Assembly: GCA_025800105.1 (NCBI GenBank) | Contig: JAOXSG010000059.1 | Span: forward strand, 1-50,404 | Direction of reading: 5' to 3' | Source of the DNA: Cohaesibacter sp. | GTDB taxonomy: Bacteria; Pseudomonadota; Alphaproteobacteria; Rhizobiales; Cohaesibacteraceae | DNA length: 50,404 nucleotides | In this document: positions 12,016-20,270 of the stretch, piece by piece | How positions within the stretch are numbered: position 1 is the stretch's first letter | How the letters are laid out: each line of letters begins with the position of its first letter | The notes under the pieces: model-generated | Told to the model about the DNA's origin: nothing | The model's input: the letters and a program-made list of their open reading frames with translations, nothing else | Databases searched by the model: none | Position numbers and translations under genes: made by a program

Positions 12016-12031
12016 CGTTTCACGTGAATCA
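12016..12031. other. parS: parS-like site 1 (after holA)
   Basis: CGTTTCACGTGAATCA has a perfect CACGTG core and left shoulder. The right shoulder has T for A, which makes GAATC (12026-12030), a GANTC methylation site. It lies in the gap between holA and parB. Confidence 0.7.
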
Positions 12032-12084
12032 ATCAAATCCATTTACCAAAAAATAACCATAAATTTTAATCTAATCGCAAAACA

Positions 12085-12118
12085 AAAAAGCCGAGATCTT
12101 AAAAGATCCCGGCTTTTT
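12085..12118. terminator. Bidirectional terminator, holA / parB
   Basis: A 16-bp stem (12085-12100 with 12103-12118, one mismatch that is a wobble in the leftward RNA) with A5 on the left and T5 on the right, between the convergent holA and parB genes. Confidence 0.9.
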
Positions 12119-12140
12119 CAACGATAGCTTATTGCAAAAA

Positions 12141-13016
12141 TCAGGCTGTGCGCTCCAAAAGCGCAATGATGGCATCAAGCTGTTCCAGAGATTTATACTG
12201 AATTTTCAGTTCCCCACCCTTTTTCTTTGGTGTCACGCGCACATTCCAGCCAAGATGATCCGTCAAACGTTTTTCCAAAGCAACGGTGTCTGCATCTTTT
12301 TCTTTTTTCTCACGAGGAGCAGAGGCTTCTGCAATTTTTTCCTGCCCTGCTTTTTCAGCATCGCGAACGGTCATCCCATCTTCAACAACCCGGCGTGCAA
12401 GCTCTTCAGGATTCTCTGCTGTGATCAAAGCCCTTGCATGACCGGCTGTGAGCTGACCAGATTTCAGATAATCTTTGACACTGTCCGGCAATTTCAGCAA
12501 ACGCAGCGTATTGGCAACATGAGAACGGCTTTTGCCAATCACCTCAGCAAGCTCTGCCTGCGTATAATCAAATTGCTGAATCAATTGATCATAACCAAGC
12601 GCTTCTTCCAGGGCATTAAGATCAGCCCGTTGCACATTCTCAATGATAGCAAGCTCAAGCGCTTCCTTATCATCCACATCATGAATAAGAACCGGCACTT
12701 CATGCAAACCAGCCCCTTGCGCTGCCCGCCAGCGACGCTCCCCAGCAATGATTTCAAAAGCATCAGTCTCGCCCTTCACCTCACGAACAAGGATAGGCTG
12801 CATAATGCCTTTTTCTTTGACAGAGCGCGTCAGATCTTCCAGATCTGTTTCAACAAAATCCAGCCTGGGATTTCTTGGATTGGGCCGCAAAAATTCAATA
12901 GGAATACGACGTTGCGAGCGCGCACGCTCGACCGCTTCCACTTCATTATCCATATCACCGATCAAGGCCGCCAATCCACGCCCTAATCTTTTGCCTTCAG
13001 CCGCTTTTTTCGCCAT
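12141..13016 (-). CDS. parB: Chromosome-partitioning protein ParB
   Basis: A 291-aa CTP-dependent DNA-sliding clamp that loads at parS sites, spreads, recruits SMC and marks the origin for segregation. In order: a basic N-tail with KRLGRGLAALIGD (the ParA-contacting region), the CTP-binding domain with GERRWRAAQ, a helix-turn-helix with IGKSRSHVANTLRLL (about residues 160-175), and a C-terminal dimerisation domain. The length is normal. It lies downstream of parA in the leftward block, and seven parS-like sites lie within 8.3 kb, as expected for the chromosomal system. Confidence 0.97.
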   Translation of the reverse strand: MAKKAAEGKRLGRGLAALIGDMDNEVEAVERARSQRRIPIEFLRPNPRNPRLDFVETDLEDLTRSVKEKGIMQPILVREVKGETDAFEIIAGERRWRAAQGAGLHEVPVLIHDVDDKEALELAIIENVQRADLNALEEALGYDQLIQQFDYTQAELAEVIGKSRSHVANTLRLLKLPDSVKDYLKSGQLTAGHARALITAENPEELARRVVEDGMTVRDAEKAGQEKIAEASAPREKKEKDADTVALEKRLTDHLGWNVRVTPKKKGGELKIQYKSLEQLDAIIALLERTA

Positions 13017-13096
13017 TTTCTTTCCGCATCCGAATCAATTGAGGTCTGCCTCACCCTCATTTTTAATCTCATGACCCAAGTCTGTAGCAGATCGCC

Positions 13097-13927
13097 TTAA
13101 GCTGCAACATGCCTGAGTTTCTTTTCCCGCTGAATAATTTCGGACGCCAGCTTCAAATAAGCCTGACTGCCACTGCACTTCAAATCATAAAGCAAAGCAG
13201 GTTTGCCATAAGAAGGCGCCTCAGAGACCCGAACATTGCGCGGAATAATGGTCTCATATACCTTATCGCCCATATGCTCTCGCACATCTTCAACCACTTG
13301 ATTGGACAGATTGTTGCGCTTGTCATACATGGTCATCACAATACCATGAATGGACAAATCCGGGTTCAAGGCCCCTTTAACCTGATTCACCGTTTGAATC
13401 AGCTGTGTCAAACCTTCCAGCGCAAAAAACTCACATTGCAAAGGCACAAGAATGGAATGCGCCGCCGCCATGGCATTGATTGTCAAAAGGTTCAAAGATG
13501 GCGGACAATCAATCAACACATAAGTAAAACGCTTCTCTTCCGGGATTTCCTCTCCCAGATCAGCATGAGCTTTCAACGCCTCACGAAGCCGAAAAGCACG
13601 ATCCTTGGAGCCAGAAATTTCCTGCTCAAGACCAAGCAAATCCATTGTAGAAGCCGCCACGCTTAAACGAGGCACCGCTGTAGGAATAGCCGCTTCCATC
13701 AAGGTTGCCTCATTCAACAGCAATTCAGCCGTTGACACACTGCGCGCCTGACGATCAATGCCTAAGCCTGTGCTTGCGTTACCTTGCGGATCAACATCAA
13801 TAATAAGAACCGTCTCGCCAATTGCCGCCAAAGCTGTTCCCAGATTGATAGCCGTTGTTGTCTTACCAACACCGCCCTTCTGGTTCGCCAAAGTCAGAAC
13901 GCGAGGTGATTTCGCCAATGCCGTCAT
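13097..13927 (-). CDS. parA: Chromosome-partitioning ATPase ParA (Soj type)
   Basis: A 276-aa deviant Walker-type ATPase that forms dimers on DNA and drives ParB-parS complexes apart. The deviant Walker A motif KGGVGKTTTAINLG starts near residue 18, and Walker B is YVLIDCPPSLNLL. It lacks an N-terminal helix-turn-helix, so it is the short chromosomal (Ib-like) form and not a plasmid Ia type. The 80-bp gap to parB downstream suggests one transcript. rsmG lies immediately upstream (11-bp gap). Confidence 0.97.
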   Translation of the reverse strand: MTALAKSPRVLTLANQKGGVGKTTTAINLGTALAAIGETVLIIDVDPQGNASTGLGIDRQARSVSTAELLLNEATLMEAAIPTAVPRLSVAASTMDLLGLEQEISGSKDRAFRLREALKAHADLGEEIPEEKRFTYVLIDCPPSLNLLTINAMAAAHSILVPLQCEFFALEGLTQLIQTVNQVKGALNPDLSIHGIVMTMYDKRNNLSNQVVEDVREHMGDKVYETIIPRNVRVSEAPSYGKPALLYDLKCSGSQAYLKLASEIIQREKKLRHVAA

Positions 13928-13938
13928 CTAATCGCCTC

Positions 13939-14598
13939 TTAGATAGATTTAGAAGATAAACCGCGCAACATCACAATGCGCGCCTCTGGGTCTGTCTTGC
14001 TAGCCTGTTGTACCAGATCTATCTCCCAGCTGGCAGAGGCCTCGGACAATTCCCGATCAAACTCTCGACCTTTGTGGAAAACACCCACACAGTCAGGACC
14101 AATGAAAGGGGCAACAAATCCGCATAAATTATCAAAAGAGGTCAAAGCCCGCGCGCTGAAAGCATCGATAGGATCCGTCCAATTCTCCAAAACCCGCTCG
14201 ATCCGGTCATTATGAACCGTGACATTCAACCCAAGCTCTCGCGCAACTGTGCGCAAAAACATAACCTTTCGACCGTTGGATTCAATCATATGCACATGAT
14301 AATCCCGTGACAGATCCTTCAACAAAATTGCCGTCACAAGACCGGGAAAGCCAGCACCAGACCCCATATCAACCCAATAGCAAGCTTGGGGATAAGCTGC
14401 GTATATCTGTGCACTATCTGCAATATGACGAACCCAAATCGCATTAAGTGTCTTCGGAGCAATAAGATTTTGCGCTGGCTGCCATTTCTTTACCAGCCCT
14501 TCATATATCCCCAGCCTGTGGATAGTTTCACGTGAAACGCCCTGCCCATCTGGCATAATAGATTGAATAAGATCCAATCCTTCCGCTTTCGAATCCAT
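13939..14598 (-). CDS. rsmG: 16S rRNA (guanine-527-N7)-methyltransferase
   Basis: A 219-aa SAM-dependent enzyme (formerly GidB) that methylates G527 of 16S rRNA. The SAM-binding motif WVDMGSGAGFPGLV begins near residue 75. The N-terminal segment GVSRETIHRL is encoded by a perfect parS core (14525-14538), so these codons also serve as a centromere site. The length is normal. It sits 18 bp after mnmG and 11 bp before parA in the conserved gidA-gidB-parA-parB cluster. Confidence 0.96.
   Translation of the reverse strand: MDSKAEGLDLIQSIMPDGQGVSRETIHRLGIYEGLVKKWQPAQNLIAPKTLNAIWVRHIADSAQIYAAYPQACYWVDMGSGAGFPGLVTAILLKDLSRDYHVHMIESNGRKVMFLRTVARELGLNVTVHNDRIERVLENWTDPIDAFSARALTSFDNLCGFVAPFIGPDCVGVFHKGREFDRELSEASASWEIDLVQQASKTDPEARIVMLRGLSSKSI
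14524..14539. other. parS: parS site 2, inside rsmG
   Basis: AGTTTCACGTGAAACG has the perfect 14-bp palindrome GTTTCACGTGAAAC. Read leftward, it encodes Val-Ser-Arg-Glu-Thr near the RsmG N-terminus. A DnaA-box-like TGTGGATAG (14517-14525) adjoins it. Confidence 0.88.
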
Positions 14599-14616
14599 TT
14601 ATCTTCCCATCCCTTT

Positions 14617-16464
14617 TCAGGACATTTTCTTACTATGCGCCAAAACCAAAGTCAGCGCTGCTGGCGTCATACCTTCAATCCGTGACGCCTGCCCCAATGT
14701 TTGCGGACGAATGTGAGACAGCTTTTGCTTTAACTCATTCGACAAACCATTGATCCCATCAAAATTAAGATTGGCAGGAATGGGCAAAGCCTCATCCTTT
14801 TTGAACGTCTCAATATCTTGCTTCTGCCGTTTCATATAAACCTGATACAGCGCCTCAATTTCCAACTGCTTACGAATAGGCGCAGAATAGTCATGAAAGT
14901 CCGGCCAAATCTCACTCAAACGATCCAGCGACAAATCAGGATAAGCCAGCAATTCATAAGCAGAACGCCTTTGGCCATCCTGATTTATTTTCAAACCGAA
15001 TCGATTAGCCTCATTCGGAGTCAAAGTCTTCTCCTGCGCCAAATTGGTAATCGCAGTCAGCTCTTTCATTTTGGATCTGAATCGATTTTGCCGTTCGGAC
15101 GAAATTAAACCCCACGCATCCGCCATTCCCGTCAACCGTTGATCGGCATTATCAGCCCGCAAGGACAATCGATATTCGGCACGCGATGTAAACATGCGAT
15201 AAGGCTCTGCCACACCACGAGTAATCAGATCATCCACCATCACACCAATATAAGCGTCCGAGCGCTGAAAAATCACACCATCCTGACCAGACGCTTGGCG
15301 CGCTGCGTTCAAACCAGCAAGCAATCCTTGCGCCCCGGCCTCTTCATAGCCCGTGGTGCCATTGATCTGACCTGCCAAATAGAGACCAGACACTTTCTTT
15401 GTCTCCAAAGTCCCTTTCAATTCAGTCGGATCAATATAGTCATATTCAATAGCATAGCCATATTGAAACACTTCAACCTTTTCCAAACCCGGAATAGAGC
15501 GCAAATAATCCAGCTGAACATGCTCAGGCAACGAAGTTGAAATGCCATTGGGATAAATATGCGGAACATCCAACCCTTCCGGCTCCAGAAAAATCTGATG
15601 CCCATCGCGGTCCCCAAAGCGCGCAATCTTATCTTCAATAGACGGACAATAACGTGGACCCTTAGAATCGATACGACCGGAATACATAGCAGACAAATGC
15701 ATATTATCACGGATAATCTGATGCGTCCTATCAACGGTTCGCGTGATATAACAATCAATCTGCGGCGTCGTAATCTGATCGGTTAAATAAGAAAAAGGCA
15801 CCGGATCATCATCAGCAGGTTGTTTTGAAAGCGAATCCAAATCAATTGTCCGACCATCCAATCGAGCTGGCGTCCCTGTTTTCAAACGGGCCAACCGAAA
15901 GTCTTCTGCCATCAAGCGCTTTGACAATTGCTCCGCAGCAGGATCACCAACACGTCCAGCAGAATAACTTTTCTCCCCAATATGAATCAGACCCCGCAAA
16001 AAGGTCCCCGTTGTCAAAACAACAGATCCACAATCAAGACGTCGACCATCATTCAAAATAGCAGCCTGAACCTGCCCATCCTCAATATCAAGATCTATGA
16101 CCTCTGCCTCAATCACGTCCAAACCATCTTGATCAAGAAGCAAAGACTGAATAGCGGCTTTATATAATTTCCGATCCGCTTGCGCGCGCGGCCCCTGCAC
16201 AGCAGGTCCTTTACGGCGATTCAAAAGCCGAAACTGAATCCCGGCCTCATCACCAGCCAATCCCATAAGACCGCCAAGTGCATCAATCTCACGAACCAGA
16301 TGCCCCTTCCCCAATCCGCCAATTGCTGGATTACAGGACATCACCCCAATCGTATCAATCTTATGTGTAACAAGCGCAACCTTAGCACCCACCCGCGCAG
16401 CAGCACTAGCCGATTCAGTGCCAGCATGACCACCACCAACAACAATCACATCATAGTGAGACAT
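14617..16464 (-). CDS. mnmG: tRNA uridine-5-carboxymethylaminomethyl modification enzyme MnmG
   Basis: A 615-aa FAD-dependent enzyme (formerly GidA) that works with MnmE to install the cmnm5 group on wobble U34 of several tRNAs. The FAD-binding motif [20 protein letters not shown] is at the N-terminus, followed by [19 protein letters not shown] with the conserved redox Cys. The length is typical. Its start lies 200 bp from mnmE, across a gap containing four parS sites. Confidence 0.97.
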
Positions 16465-16492
16465 CCATCACTCCAGATATCAACATCATCAA

Positions 16493-16508
16493 GGATTCAC
16501 GTGAAACA
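16493..16508. other. parS: parS-like site 3
   Basis: GGATTCACGTGAAACA matches parS except at the left shoulder, where A replaces T and creates GATTC (16494-16498). It is the first of four sites in the mnmG-mnmE gap; the following centres are 48, 59 and 44 bp further on. Confidence 0.85.
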
Positions 16509-16540
16509 AGATATCTACCCTATTTTCACTCAAAACCCAA

Positions 16541-16556
16541 GGATTCACGTGAAACA
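16541..16556. other. parS: parS-like site 4
   Basis: GGATTCACGTGAAACA is identical to site 3, including the GATTC shoulder (16542-16546). Confidence 0.85.
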
Positions 16557-16599
16557 AAACGCATCCGAATCTAAAAACAAAAACGAAAGATCCAGACAG

Positions 16600-16615
16600 A
16601 GATTCACGTGAAACA
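16600..16615. other. parS: parS-like site 5
   Basis: AGATTCACGTGAAACA, with the same shoulder change creating GATTC (16601-16605). Confidence 0.85.
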
Positions 16616-16643
16616 CAATCAAAACACCAACCGTTTCAATTCC

Positions 16644-16659
16644 TGTTTCACGTGAAACT
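16644..16659. other. parS: parS site 6
   Basis: TGTTTCACGTGAAACT is one base from the canonical 16-mer and has a perfect 14-bp palindrome. It ends 6 bp before the mnmE stop codon and lacks a GANTC site. Confidence 0.9.
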
Positions 16660-16664
16660 GTCCA

Positions 16665-18002
16665 CTATTTACCCACACAAAATTGTGAAAAAATAACACC
16701 GAGCATTTCTTCTACATCAATTTGTCCAGTGAGTTTCCCAAGCTCTTCCCCAGCCATACGCAAAAATTCAGATCGAATTTCTATTGGGGAGTCAGTATAG
16801 ATAAGCGCTTTCTCCACATAATCCACACAACAAGACAAAGCTTCAAATTGTCGCTTTTGCGTAACAAGAGCATTTTCCGCCCCTGTAAAGGATTTCTCAA
16901 TATGTTTCACAAACGAATCATAAAAATCCTGCATTCCGATCTCTTGCTTAACCGACACTTTAAAAACACCAGAAAGCTTATCGATATTTGTGAAATCAGA
17001 AATATTTTCGGAACCGACTCGATCAATCTTATTGAACAGAACCATCCGCTCTGCATCACTCTCCAGAGCAACACGCTCAGCATTAGAACTGACATCGACA
17101 ATCTCAATCAACAAATCAGCCGCTTGCGAGCGATCCAAAGCCCGGCGTATTCCCTCTTTCTCAACCAAATTGTCAGCATCGCGCAAACCAGCCGTATCAA
17201 CCAGCATCACCGGATAGCCTTCAATATCAAGATGAAGTTCCAAAAGATCCCGCGTCGTCCCGGCCTCTTCTGTCACGATGGCAACATCACGTTTGGCAAA
17301 CCAGTTCAACAAAGACGATTTACCTGCATTGGGATGCCCGACCAAAACAACCTGAAAGCCATCTCTGATCCGCTCACCTGATTTTGCATTGGAAAGAGAC
17401 TGCTGCATTTGCGCTTTTAACGCAGAAATCTTGGGCCAAATCACATCCGAAACAGACCCCGGAATATCTTCCTCATCCGAAAAATCCAGCTCTGCCTCAA
17501 TCATACTGCGCCCATAAAGCAAAATATCGCGCCATTCATCCAACTGTTTTCGATGATGACCACTGGCCTGACGCAACGCTTGCCGTCTTTGTTGTTCCGT
17601 TTCGGCATGAATAAGATCAGCAAGTCCTTCGACTTCCATCAAATCCATTTTGCCATTTTCAAATGCCCGCCGGGAAAATTCCCCAGCTTCTGCCAAACGG
17701 CATTCGTCAAAGGAAGACAAAAGATCAATCACAGCCGAAACGACAGCCCGTCCCCCATGACAATGCAGCTCCACGCAATGCTCGCCAGTAAAAGAATGAG
17801 GCGCAGGAAATGTCAGAACCAGAACCTGATCAATCACCTCGCCACTTCTATAATCCATTAAAGACCGCAAGCCGGCTGTTCGTGATTTCGGAAGCGACTC
17901 GAATAGCTGATCTGCTATCTCCAAAGCCTTAGACCCGGACAATCGAAACACAGCAACACCGGCAGGAACCGCACCACTTGATAAAGCAAAAATCGTAGAC
18001 AT
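16665..18002 (-). CDS. mnmE: tRNA modification GTPase MnmE
   Basis: A 445-aa GTPase (TrmE) that forms the U34-modifying complex with MnmG. The N-terminal tetrahydrofolate-binding domain (from MSTIFALSSG) leads into helical regions that flank an inserted G domain with Walker A VGHPNAGKSSLLNW, VDTAGLRD and NKID. The essential C-terminal FCVGK ends the protein. The start is taken as the ATG at 18002, preceded by GCGGATGAG; a TTG four codons upstream is the alternative. GANTC-rich DNA lies upstream. Confidence 0.96.
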   Translation of the reverse strand: MSTIFALSSGAVPAGVAVFRLSGSKALEIADQLFESLPKSRTAGLRSLMDYRSGEVIDQVLVLTFPAPHSFTGEHCVELHCHGGRAVVSAVIDLLSSFDECRLAEAGEFSRRAFENGKMDLMEVEGLADLIHAETEQQRRQALRQASGHHRKQLDEWRDILLYGRSMIEAELDFSDEEDIPGSVSDVIWPKISALKAQMQQSLSNAKSGERIRDGFQVVLVGHPNAGKSSLLNWFAKRDVAIVTEEAGTTRDLLELHLDIEGYPVMLVDTAGLRDADNLVEKEGIRRALDRSQAADLLIEIVDVSSNAERVALESDAERMVLFNKIDRVGSENISDFTNIDKLSGVFKVSVKQEIGMQDFYDSFVKHIEKSFTGAENALVTQKRQFEALSCCVDYVEKALIYTDSPIEIRSEFLRMAGEELGKLTGQIDVEEMLGVIFSQFCVGK

Positions 18003-18063
18003 CTCATCCGCCAATCTGCCAGCCTCATCCAGACTTCATAAAAGAGAAGATCATTACGAAGGC

Positions 18064-18080
18064 GACTCGAATCGAGATTC
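18064..18080. promoter_or_regulatory. Triple-GANTC motif upstream of mnmE
   Basis: GACTCGAATCGAGATTC contains three GANTC sites at offsets 0, 5 and 12. The same arrangement (15 of 17 bases identical) occurs at 24878-24894 before dnaQ. The rest of the 278-bp mnmE-rho gap holds another GACTC (18154-18158) in a GAAGCGACTCGA repeat and the rho terminator. Confidence 0.5.
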
Positions 18081-18180
18081 CCATGACATCATGCAAAAAT
18101 ATGCTATCAAAAGAGAACCGAGATCTAAGAGAAATAAGGATTGTTTTAGAAGCGACTCGATTATTCAAAATCGATTTTCA

Positions 18181-18218
18181 AAAGAAAAGCCGCCAGACCT
18201 TTCAGATCTGGCGGCTTT
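18181..18218 (-). terminator. Terminator of rho
   Basis: AAAGCCGCCAGA (18186-18197) and TCTGGCGGCTTT (18207-18218) form a perfect 12-bp stem with a 9-nt loop. The leftward tail reads CTTTTCTTT. It lies about 60 bases beyond the rho stop. Confidence 0.85.
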
Positions 18219-18280
18219 GATAGCATGTTCAAAAATCAGCGCAAGAAAAAAGTAGCTCCTTTTTCCAGCCAGATTGTCAA

Positions 18281-19546
18281 TCAGGTATTCATCGTATCGA
18301 AGAAATCCGAATTATTCTTGGTTGAACGCAATTTATCGAGCAGGAACTCAATCGCATCTACATTGCTCATAGCACCCAAAATCCGACGCAGAACAAAGAC
18401 CTTTTGCAGATCTTTGCGATCCACCATCAGCTCTTCCTTACGTGTCCCGGATTTCAAAATATCCATAGCAGGGAAAATACGCTTATCGGAAACCTTACGA
18501 TCCAGAACAATCTCGGCATTACCTGTGCCTTTAAATTCTTCAAAGATCACTTCATCCATGCGAGAGCCAGTATCAATCAAGGCGGTAGCGATGATCGTCA
18601 AAGACCCACCTTCCTCAATATTACGCGCCGCACCAAAGAAACGTTTTGGACGCTGCAAGGCATTGGCATCCACACCACCGGTCAAAACTTTACCAGAAGA
18701 TGGGATCACCGTGTTATAGGCGCGACCCAAACGGGTAATTGAATCCAGCAAGATTACAACATCGCGGCCATGCTCAACCAGACGCTTGGCTTTCTCAATC
18801 ACCATTTCAGCAACCTGAACATGGCGAGAGGCCGGCTCGTCAAAAGTGGAAGAGACCACTTCTCCATTCACGGTCCGTTTCATGTCGGTCACCTCTTCCG
18901 GGCGCTCGTCAATCAACAAAACAATCAAACAGCTATCTGGATGATTGGCCGTAATGGATTTGGCGATATTCTGCAACAGAACCGTTTTACCGGTCCGCGG
19001 CGGTGCCACAATCAAGGCACGCTGACCCTTGCCAAGCGGGGCGACAAGATCAATCACCCGACTGGACATATCCTTGGAGGTTGGATCAACAGATTCCAAC
19101 TGAAAACGCTCATCAGGATGCAGCGGCGTCAGATTGTCAAAATGAACCTTATGACGCGCTTTGTCAGGATCTTCAAAATTGACACTATTGACTTTCAGCA
19201 AAGCAAAATAGCGTTCCCCGTCTTTGGGGCTGCGAATATGCCCCTCAACGGTATCACCGGTGCGCAGGGAAAAGCGCCGAATTTGCGACGGGGAAATATA
19301 GATATCATCTGGTCCAGGCAGATAATTTGCATCAGGAGAGCGCAAAAAGCCAAAGCCATCTTGCAGCACTTCCACAACACCTTCTCCGATAATATCGGTA
19401 TCTTTCTCTGCCAATTGTTTCAGAATAGCGAATAGCAGCTCCTGCTTGCGCAGTGTGCTGGCATTTTCAACCTCGAGCTCCTCAGCGAAATTGAGAAGTT
19501 CGGTGGGTGATTTTTGTTTGAGTTCTTGTAGTTTCATTTCGCGCAT
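18281..19546 (-). CDS. rho: Transcription termination factor Rho
   Basis: A 421-aa hexameric RNA helicase that ends transcription at Rho-dependent sites. An N-terminal Rho domain ([15 protein letters not shown]), a cold-shock-like RNA-binding domain ([22 protein letters not shown]) and the ATPase core with Walker [13 protein letters not shown] are all visible. The start is set at the ATG at 19546 (MREMKLQEL); a start three codons later is equally possible, and the open frame upstream is not family-like. It sits between mnmE and hemJ, as in relatives. Confidence 0.97.
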
Positions 19547-19738
19547 AGCGAAAGTCTCGTTAAGCCAAAGCAACCATGGGAAAATGTGAGGTAGGATAGA
19601 ACAAAGCGCTATTGTTTGTTTTTGCGCTCTGCAAACTCTTCAAACCCGGCAAGACCAAATGGTCAGATGATTCGCCAATCAAAGAGTTGGCGGACCATAG
19701 CCCTTGTCAAAGCTCTTGCCAAGCCAAAAATGAAAGAA

Positions 19739-19763
19739 GGCGACTTCTGTCTAAGAAATCGCC
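19739..19763 (-). terminator. Possible terminator of hemJ
   Basis: GGCGACTTCT (19739-19748) and AGAAATCGCC (19754-19763) form a 10-bp stem with one wobble and a 5-nt loop. The leftward tail is T-rich but interrupted (TTCTTTCATTTTT). It lies in the hemJ-rho gap. Confidence 0.5.
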
Positions 19764-19800
19764 CTCAAAATGCAAAAATTGCCTAAATCTTGATCAAAAA

Positions 19801-20235
19801 TCAAAAAGGCTTGACCACCGCCAAAATCACAATGCCGAGCATCAAAAGCGTCGGCACTTCATTCAGCACCCGATAGAATTTATGACTTTTTTCATTTTTA
19901 TCCGCTGCAAAAACCTTCACACATTTGGCCAGATACATGTGATAGACACTCATACCAATCACCAGCAAAAATTTGATATGCAGCCAAATCGCATCTGGTT
20001 CCCAAATTCCAAAATGAAACGCCAAAGCCAGTCCCAAAATCCAGGCAACAATCATGGACGGGTTCATAATCGCTTTTAAAAGGCGCCGTTCCATAATTTT
20101 AAAAGTCTCAGATTGATCACTGCCAGCTTCTGTCTCTGCATGATAGACAAACAAACGCGGCAAATAAAAAATCCCGGCCATCCAGGTAATGATGGCAATG
20201 ATATGCAGGGCTTTCACCCAAAGATAACTATCCAT
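19801..20235 (-). CDS. hemJ: Protoporphyrinogen IX oxidase HemJ
   Basis: A 144-aa integral membrane protein that oxidises protoporphyrinogen IX to protoporphyrin IX in haem synthesis. Four membrane segments are apparent. The first contains VKALHIIAIITWMAGIFYLPRLFVYH, with the conserved His and the YLPRLFVYH motif, and LHIKFLLVIGMSVYH lies in the third. The start ATG at 20235 has AGAGGA upstream; the frame is open for another 23 codons that look non-coding. It follows hemE, an earlier enzyme of the same pathway, though a terminator and a parS-like site separate them. Confidence 0.93.
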   Translation of the reverse strand: MDSYLWVKALHIIAIITWMAGIFYLPRLFVYHAETEAGSDQSETFKIMERRLLKAIMNPSMIVAWILGLALAFHFGIWEPDAIWLHIKFLLVIGMSVYHMYLAKCVKVFAADKNEKSHKFYRVLNEVPTLLMLGIVILAVVKPF

Positions 20236-20254
20236 TCTGGTCCTCTGATAGAAG

Positions 20255-20270
20255 CATTTCACGTGAATCC
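20255..20270. other. parS: parS-like site 7 (weak), upstream of hemJ
   Basis: CATTTCACGTGAATCC retains TTTCACGTGAA but both outer shoulders deviate, and the right one forms GAATC (20265-20269). This is the weakest of the seven sites and the closest to the putative origin, about 1.1 kb away. Confidence 0.5.

Follow-up and report, generated by a model that had tools for sequence, protein, structure and literature searches.

The 50,404-nt window analyzed here (the whole stretch of DNA, contig JAOXSG010000059.1 of assembly GCA_025800105.1) comes from Cohaesibacter sp., a genus of the Hyphomicrobiales within the Alphaproteobacteria, and carries a chromosomal partition locus with parA, parB and seven parS-like sites. 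By comparing this locus with those of other Proteobacteria we confirmed a real class of parS sites that is specific to the Hyphomicrobiales (the order, throughout) and bears in one shoulder the word GANTC, which is methylated by CcrM. At the level of sequence the class shows itself in an excess of the variant, its restriction to the order, its recurrence, a limit of one GANTC half per site, and second changes that are linked to GANTC. Selection on the GANTC word is likely but unproven, being somewhat favored over a preference of ParB, and the pattern hints at a chromosome separation that may sense how recently the DNA was copied.

GANTC-bearing parS sites in the window and in related genomes

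All seven sites in the window have a CACGTG core (Table 1). In five of them a single shoulder GTTTC is changed to GATTC/GAATC, which creates a GANTC word, and the other two (14525 and 16645) are perfect palindromes. The same sites had been recognized in a sequence-only reading of the window, which set their starts one base too early and, for site 20256, reported the GANTC shoulder correctly and left a second change in the opposite shoulder (ATTTC) unmentioned. A scan allowing up to three mismatches returned nine matches in the window, including two with three mismatches each (2497 and 6110) that we did not count as parS; 100 shuffles of the window gave on average 1.5 matches, with a maximum of 5, in the same scan. 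As is typical of chromosomal parS, the sites are near-matches to GTTTCACGTGAAAC present in several copies by parAB, and the ParB encoded in the window is the protein expected to bind all seven. Beyond these sites, the available sequence of the source genome (3.57 Mb, 65% complete) contains no further place with zero or one mismatch and three places with two. With 4 positions and 3 bases taken as equally likely, the probability that all five shoulder changes hit one position and base is about 4e-6, or 6e-4 when the three clustered sites are counted once. The caution already voiced over kinship among these clustered sites was well placed, as 16494 and 16542 have the flanks CAAG...AA in common. 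Simple chance within the window is ruled out by the shuffles and by the count in 101 genomes given below.

Among the matches listed, all 20 genomes of the family, the source included, carry the GANTC variant. At sites with one perfect half in 19 family loci, the other half reads GATT in 105 cases and GTTT in 24, with no other versions, and in each of the 17 loci from the genus the stretch upstream of mnmG has three GANTC sites beside a perfect one. Site layouts are inherited in the genus, and therefore the family alone cannot show selection. The order was covered by 101 genomes drawn evenly from it, a count that was not selected for variants but covers only position 2 of the shoulder (numbered 1 to 5 along GTTTC). 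With the other half perfect, position 2 is replaced by A in 97 sites, by C in 9 and by G in 2, while about 3 of each letter are expected by chance; the A variant occurs in 42 of the 101 genomes, representing 24 family codes. A sample of 397 genomes from the phylum, in which group sizes were counted by hand from a table, gave a similar picture: 72 A, 7 C and 4 G variants in 54 genomes of the order, compared with 0, 5 and 0 in 107 other Alphaproteobacteria (about 3 of each expected by chance) and 7, 6 and 1 in 236 other Pseudomonadota (about 7 of each expected). In a class sample of 192 genomes, 6 have the A variant, 4 of them among the 189 that are not from the order; we examined three of the four and found the variant at mnmG or rsmG, and because of this location they are probably real. 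Thus, the excess of A belongs to the Hyphomicrobiales and falls to background level outside the order. The sequence-only reading had proposed looking for an excess of GANTC shoulders in relatives, and a large one is present in the order.

Two genomes of one family code, f137 (L064 and L066; G215 and G299), have an unusually large number of GANTC parS sites (10 in the first, 7 in the second), which are scattered over tens of kb.

For comparison at the level of loci, we fetched stretches from 75 of the 98 non-family genomes of the order sample, partly chosen for their position-2 variants, and 6 more from the phylum sample; counts in these 81 order loci hence overstate A relative to changes at other positions. 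Loci L005 and L006 overlap L034 and L033 and were left out of the counts. The site inside rsmG (14525) had been thought to be held perfect by the rsmG codons, which proved wrong: its ortholog has a GANTC half in 14 of 19 family loci, where VSRET has become VSRES, and in 11 of the 73 loci from the rest of the order, 8 with VSRES and 3 with DSRET. Codon constraint as the reason for the perfect site is thereby ruled out. C is found at that position in 4 of the 73 order loci. GANTC was gained at the rsmG site, in either half, in f1, f136, f137, f144, f154, f165, f168 and f170, as well as in one genome outside the order. On a MnmG tree (119 rows) we counted at least 7 changes between A and perfect at this site, 3 changes between C and perfect, and 25 changes for presence of the variant, all of them rough figures from one gene in which 50 of 116 inner branches are open, several family codes are split and deep support is weak.

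Across Alphaproteobacteria, the 5' part of rsmG contains a perfect parS, read as VSRET, in 30 of 40 loci from outside the order, 43 of the 73 order loci and 5 of the 19 family loci. The DNA site appears to shape the RsmG protein sequence.

Second changes and the one-half rule

The GANTC word fixes G1, A2, T4 and C5 and leaves position 3 free, which makes it possible to separate a need for A at position 2 from a need for GANTC. We scanned 397 order genomes with double-change patterns in which the other half is perfect and the ends are T and A; the hits are predicted sites. Among changes at position 3, which keep GANTC, GACTC was found 21 times vs 2 for GTCTC. Changes at position 4 break the word; here GATCC was found once vs 25 shoulders without A (22 GTTCC, 2 GTTGC and 1 GTTAC). 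Control matches amount to one in both tables combined. The outcomes at positions 3 and 4 differ with Fisher p of 1e-10 by site, 0.001 by genus and 0.02 by family code. A second change at position 1 was never seen together with A in the 81 order loci, where a change at position 1 alone occurs 4 times. Three sites in these loci combine A with a change at position 4 of the opposite half, therefore this pair of changes is tolerated when GANTC is intact. Second changes in the order are thus distributed as GANTC predicts and not as A alone predicts. This pattern is what selection on the word predicts, and an account based on ParB only would need an interaction between bases of the same shape.

GANTC was not found in both halves of any of the 129 family sites or 215 order sites, while 21 and 12 such sites are expected if the halves are independent, a deficit that kinship makes less strong than it appears; among the matches listed, at least one 14-mer with double GANTC is present elsewhere in genome G005. 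Where a locus has the variant, the stretch analyzed contains a perfect site as well in all 18 cases from the family and in 34 of the 45 from the order.

Several simpler descriptions of the variant half were rejected. A broken half that tolerates anything is ruled out by the near absence of A combined with changes at position 4 or 1, and a fixed orientation is ruled out by GANTC halves on either side. An overlap with DnaA boxes resulting from the A change was also set aside, since the T that should precede the G is present in only 62 of 101 GANTC halves of order loci, compared with 84 of 101 of the opposite halves.

Methylation and competing explanations

We propose that the parS set of the Hyphomicrobiales comprises two kinds of sites, perfect palindromes and sites that carry the CcrM word (GATTC, sometimes GACTC) in one shoulder, the other shoulder being consensus or near it, and that the word would be kept because CcrM methylates it. 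The source genome encodes a CcrM with a RAMA domain scoring over its cut-off; the CcrM model NF050803 gives 632.9 bits (E 1e-190), which is under its cut-off of 830. ParB inserts its recognition helix into the major groove of parS (PMC7383237, in its accessible part). Methyl groups of GANTC, on both strands of the shoulder, would lie in this groove, and therefore methylation would be expected to alter ParB affinity. Right after replication, the sites near the origin would be among the earliest to turn hemimethylated, a state that would end only with the appearance of CcrM late in the cycle. Sites with GANTC may thus serve as accessory nucleation sites whose strength tracks replication, beside perfect sites that are blind to methylation, and a weakening of ParB loading by methylation is the direction that would better fit the absence of double-GANTC sites. 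Methylation-dependent nucleation of ParB at accessory sites is physically reasonable. We consider it close to an even matter, slightly on the doubtful side, that the order has such a two-kind set in which the GANTC shoulder is kept for CcrM methylation and accessory loading follows replication. The stronger proposition, that centromeres in the order are epigenetic, with accessory parS sites that have one CcrM-methylated half loading ParB differently on newly copied, hemimethylated sisters than on older DNA, so that the replication state of the origin sets loading and segregation, seems doubtful.

A number of observations weigh against a role of methylation. CcrM was found in all 58 order genomes tested, users and non-users of the variant alike, and in 13 of 14 other Alphaproteobacteria, most of which are without the variant; in 8 other Pseudomonadota it was absent save for one weak match (32% identity). 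In G087 and G391 the variant is located at mnmG and neither genome has a CcrM match. GACTC occurs in four family codes only (f154, f155, f159, f165), with six genera, and at position 3 T is replaced by C only, never by A or G. According to the accessible part of PMC11514494, depletion or overexpression of CcrM in A. tumefaciens changed ori2 and did not visibly change duplication or partitioning of ori1, in a strain that may or may not carry GATTC parS. Finally, no clear enrichment of GANTC was seen within 100 bp of perfect sites after dinucleotide shuffles. For sites classed as upstream, downstream and other, the flanks contain 58 GANTC words vs 51.7 expected (sd 7.4), 25 vs 36.5 and 29 vs 24.5 in the order, and 23 vs 34.8, 25 vs 27.6 and 7 vs 14.9 in the class; in the family, upstream flanks contain 26 vs 17.5 (sd 3.8; 2 sd up) and downstream flanks 6 vs 4.9. 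A general GANTC enrichment by parS, suggested by the raw count in the order (4.95 per kb by perfect sites vs 2.11 per kb overall), was rejected, as dinucleotide shuffles removed most of it. GANTC is concentrated within the ParB site itself, and in the family a slight excess extends into the surroundings.

The best surviving alternative is a preference of ParB alone, in which ParB of the order would accept A at position 2 in one half, the A would permit C at position 3 and forbid changes at position 4, and GANTC would be a by-product. We regard it as a tentative explanation, somewhat short of probable. It would accommodate the variants in the two genomes without a CcrM match, the failure of CcrM presence to predict use of the variant and the flanks without clear enrichment; moreover, as only C replaces T at position 3, ParB must also constrain the shoulder. 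However, an altered reading head of ParB in the order was not seen in the comparison of its DNA-contact residues, which are nearly alike in 55 loci with the variant, 34 loci of non-users and 40 outside loci, with K in place of R at the residue matching Caulobacter R204 in 3 of the 55. In the ParB of the window, all parS-contact residues of Caulobacter ParB named in the accessible part of PMC7383237 are kept in the alignment. The interaction required among positions 2, 3 and 4 would also have to mimic GANTC by coincidence, and the absence of double A suggests that A carries a cost for binding, although no variant is commoner in the order.

GANTC might instead be kept for another reader of methylation, e.g. 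a GcrA-type promoter control of mnmG, rsmG or parAB, and not for ParB loading. Many sites do lie in the gap upstream of mnmG, but others are found within rsmG, toward the end of mnmG or at a distance of several kb, and perfect sites of this gap show no clear enrichment of GANTC in their flanks, which makes this explanation unlikely. Chance combined with shared ancestry within one genus, to which the mere seven sites in the window, the like flanks of two of the three clustered sites and the inherited layouts would point, is highly improbable, being contradicted by the 101-genome count with its 24 family codes, by gains in either half of the orthologous rsmG site and by the double-change test.

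The sites resemble those of chromosomal ParABS systems of the Caulobacter and Bacillus type, which are palindromic 14/16-mers by parAB, occur in several copies and work with a ParB from the same family. Caulobacter parS sites have one half that is the conserved one (PMC5815017, in its accessible part); unlike in the Caulobacter and Bacillus systems, the varied half in the order mostly has one letter change that creates a methylation word. CcrM words near partition sites, with a proposed link to the cell cycle, are also described for repABC replicons (PMC9040568, PMC11514494, PMC6090056). In the accessible parts of these papers they lie beside parS or in promoters (e.g. about 500 bp from parS3), whereas those described here fall within the ParB site itself, on the main chromosome. 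Competition of a DNA-binding protein and CcrM for one GANTC would have a parallel in the occlusion of GANTC by MucR, which results in local hypomethylation (PMC5172544). The same study mentions GANTCs "at the parS locus" of Caulobacter; its accessible part claims no role for them in ParB binding. In the open-licence literature we found no account of parS sites with GANTC in one half as an order-wide class, no paper containing the variant 14-mer in either orientation and, in line with the sequence-only reading, no described link between methylation and ParB loading. In origin sequestration by Dam and SeqA, hemimethylation marks freshly copied origin DNA, and it would be a mark of a fresh copy in the proposed mechanism as well; unlike the sites of the order, the Dam/SeqA system targets the initiation of replication by means of a separate reader protein and does not target centromere sites.

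How segregation is coupled to replication in bacteria is still to be explained, and ParABS is generally regarded as insensitive to the recent copying of its DNA. Centromere loading sites with a cell-cycle methylation word that is seemingly selected would allow a test that is both direct and cheap. Should methylation turn out to be irrelevant, the two-kind parS set and the one-half rule would still constitute a new fact on ParB specificity in a large order.

Genes of the locus and diverged sites

The region contains holA, parB, parA, rsmG, mnmG, mnmE, rho, hemJ and hemE. Positions of the sites and of the genes around them are given in Table 1.

Table 1. parS-like sites and neighboring genes in the window
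Feature	Coordinates	Strand	Description
parS-like GTTTCACGTGAATC	12017..12030	+	GANTC in right half; between holA and parB
parB	12141..13016	-	TIGR00180, 190.8 bits (cut-off 58.45); phmmer vs Caulobacter ParB 6t1f, E 6.6e-72
parA	13097..13927	-	ParA/MinD-type ATPase models all under cut-offs; named from these and its place beside parB
rsmG (gidB)	13939..14598	-	TIGR00138 over cut-off
perfect parS GTTTCACGTGAAAC	14525..14538	+	inside rsmG; codes VSRET on the - strand
mnmG (gidA)	14617..16464	-	TIGR00136 over cut-off
parS-like GATTCACGTGAAAC	16494..16507	+	GANTC in left half; mnmG-mnmE gap; flanks as at 16542
parS-like GATTCACGTGAAAC	16542..16555	+	GANTC in left half; mnmG-mnmE gap
parS-like GATTCACGTGAAAC	16601..16614	+	GANTC in left half; mnmG-mnmE gap
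perfect parS GTTTCACGTGAAAC	16645..16658	+	adjoins mnmE
mnmE	16665..18014	-	NF003661 over cut-off
parS-like ATTTCACGTGAATC	20256..20269	+	GANTC in right half, second change in left; also in relatives L029 and L034

Some loci deviate from the common pattern of parS sites. Among the order loci, L118 (genome G258) has no consensus parS around mnmG, and L122 (genome G240) has only a degenerate CGTT/GCTT site there; GWTTCACGTGAAAC was not found in either genome, and parS may have diverged there. In two loci from Alphaproteobacteria outside the order, L163 (G045) and L166 (G029), parS is in its customary locations but has GTTCC shoulders (on both sides in L166), which represents another lineage-specific shoulder.

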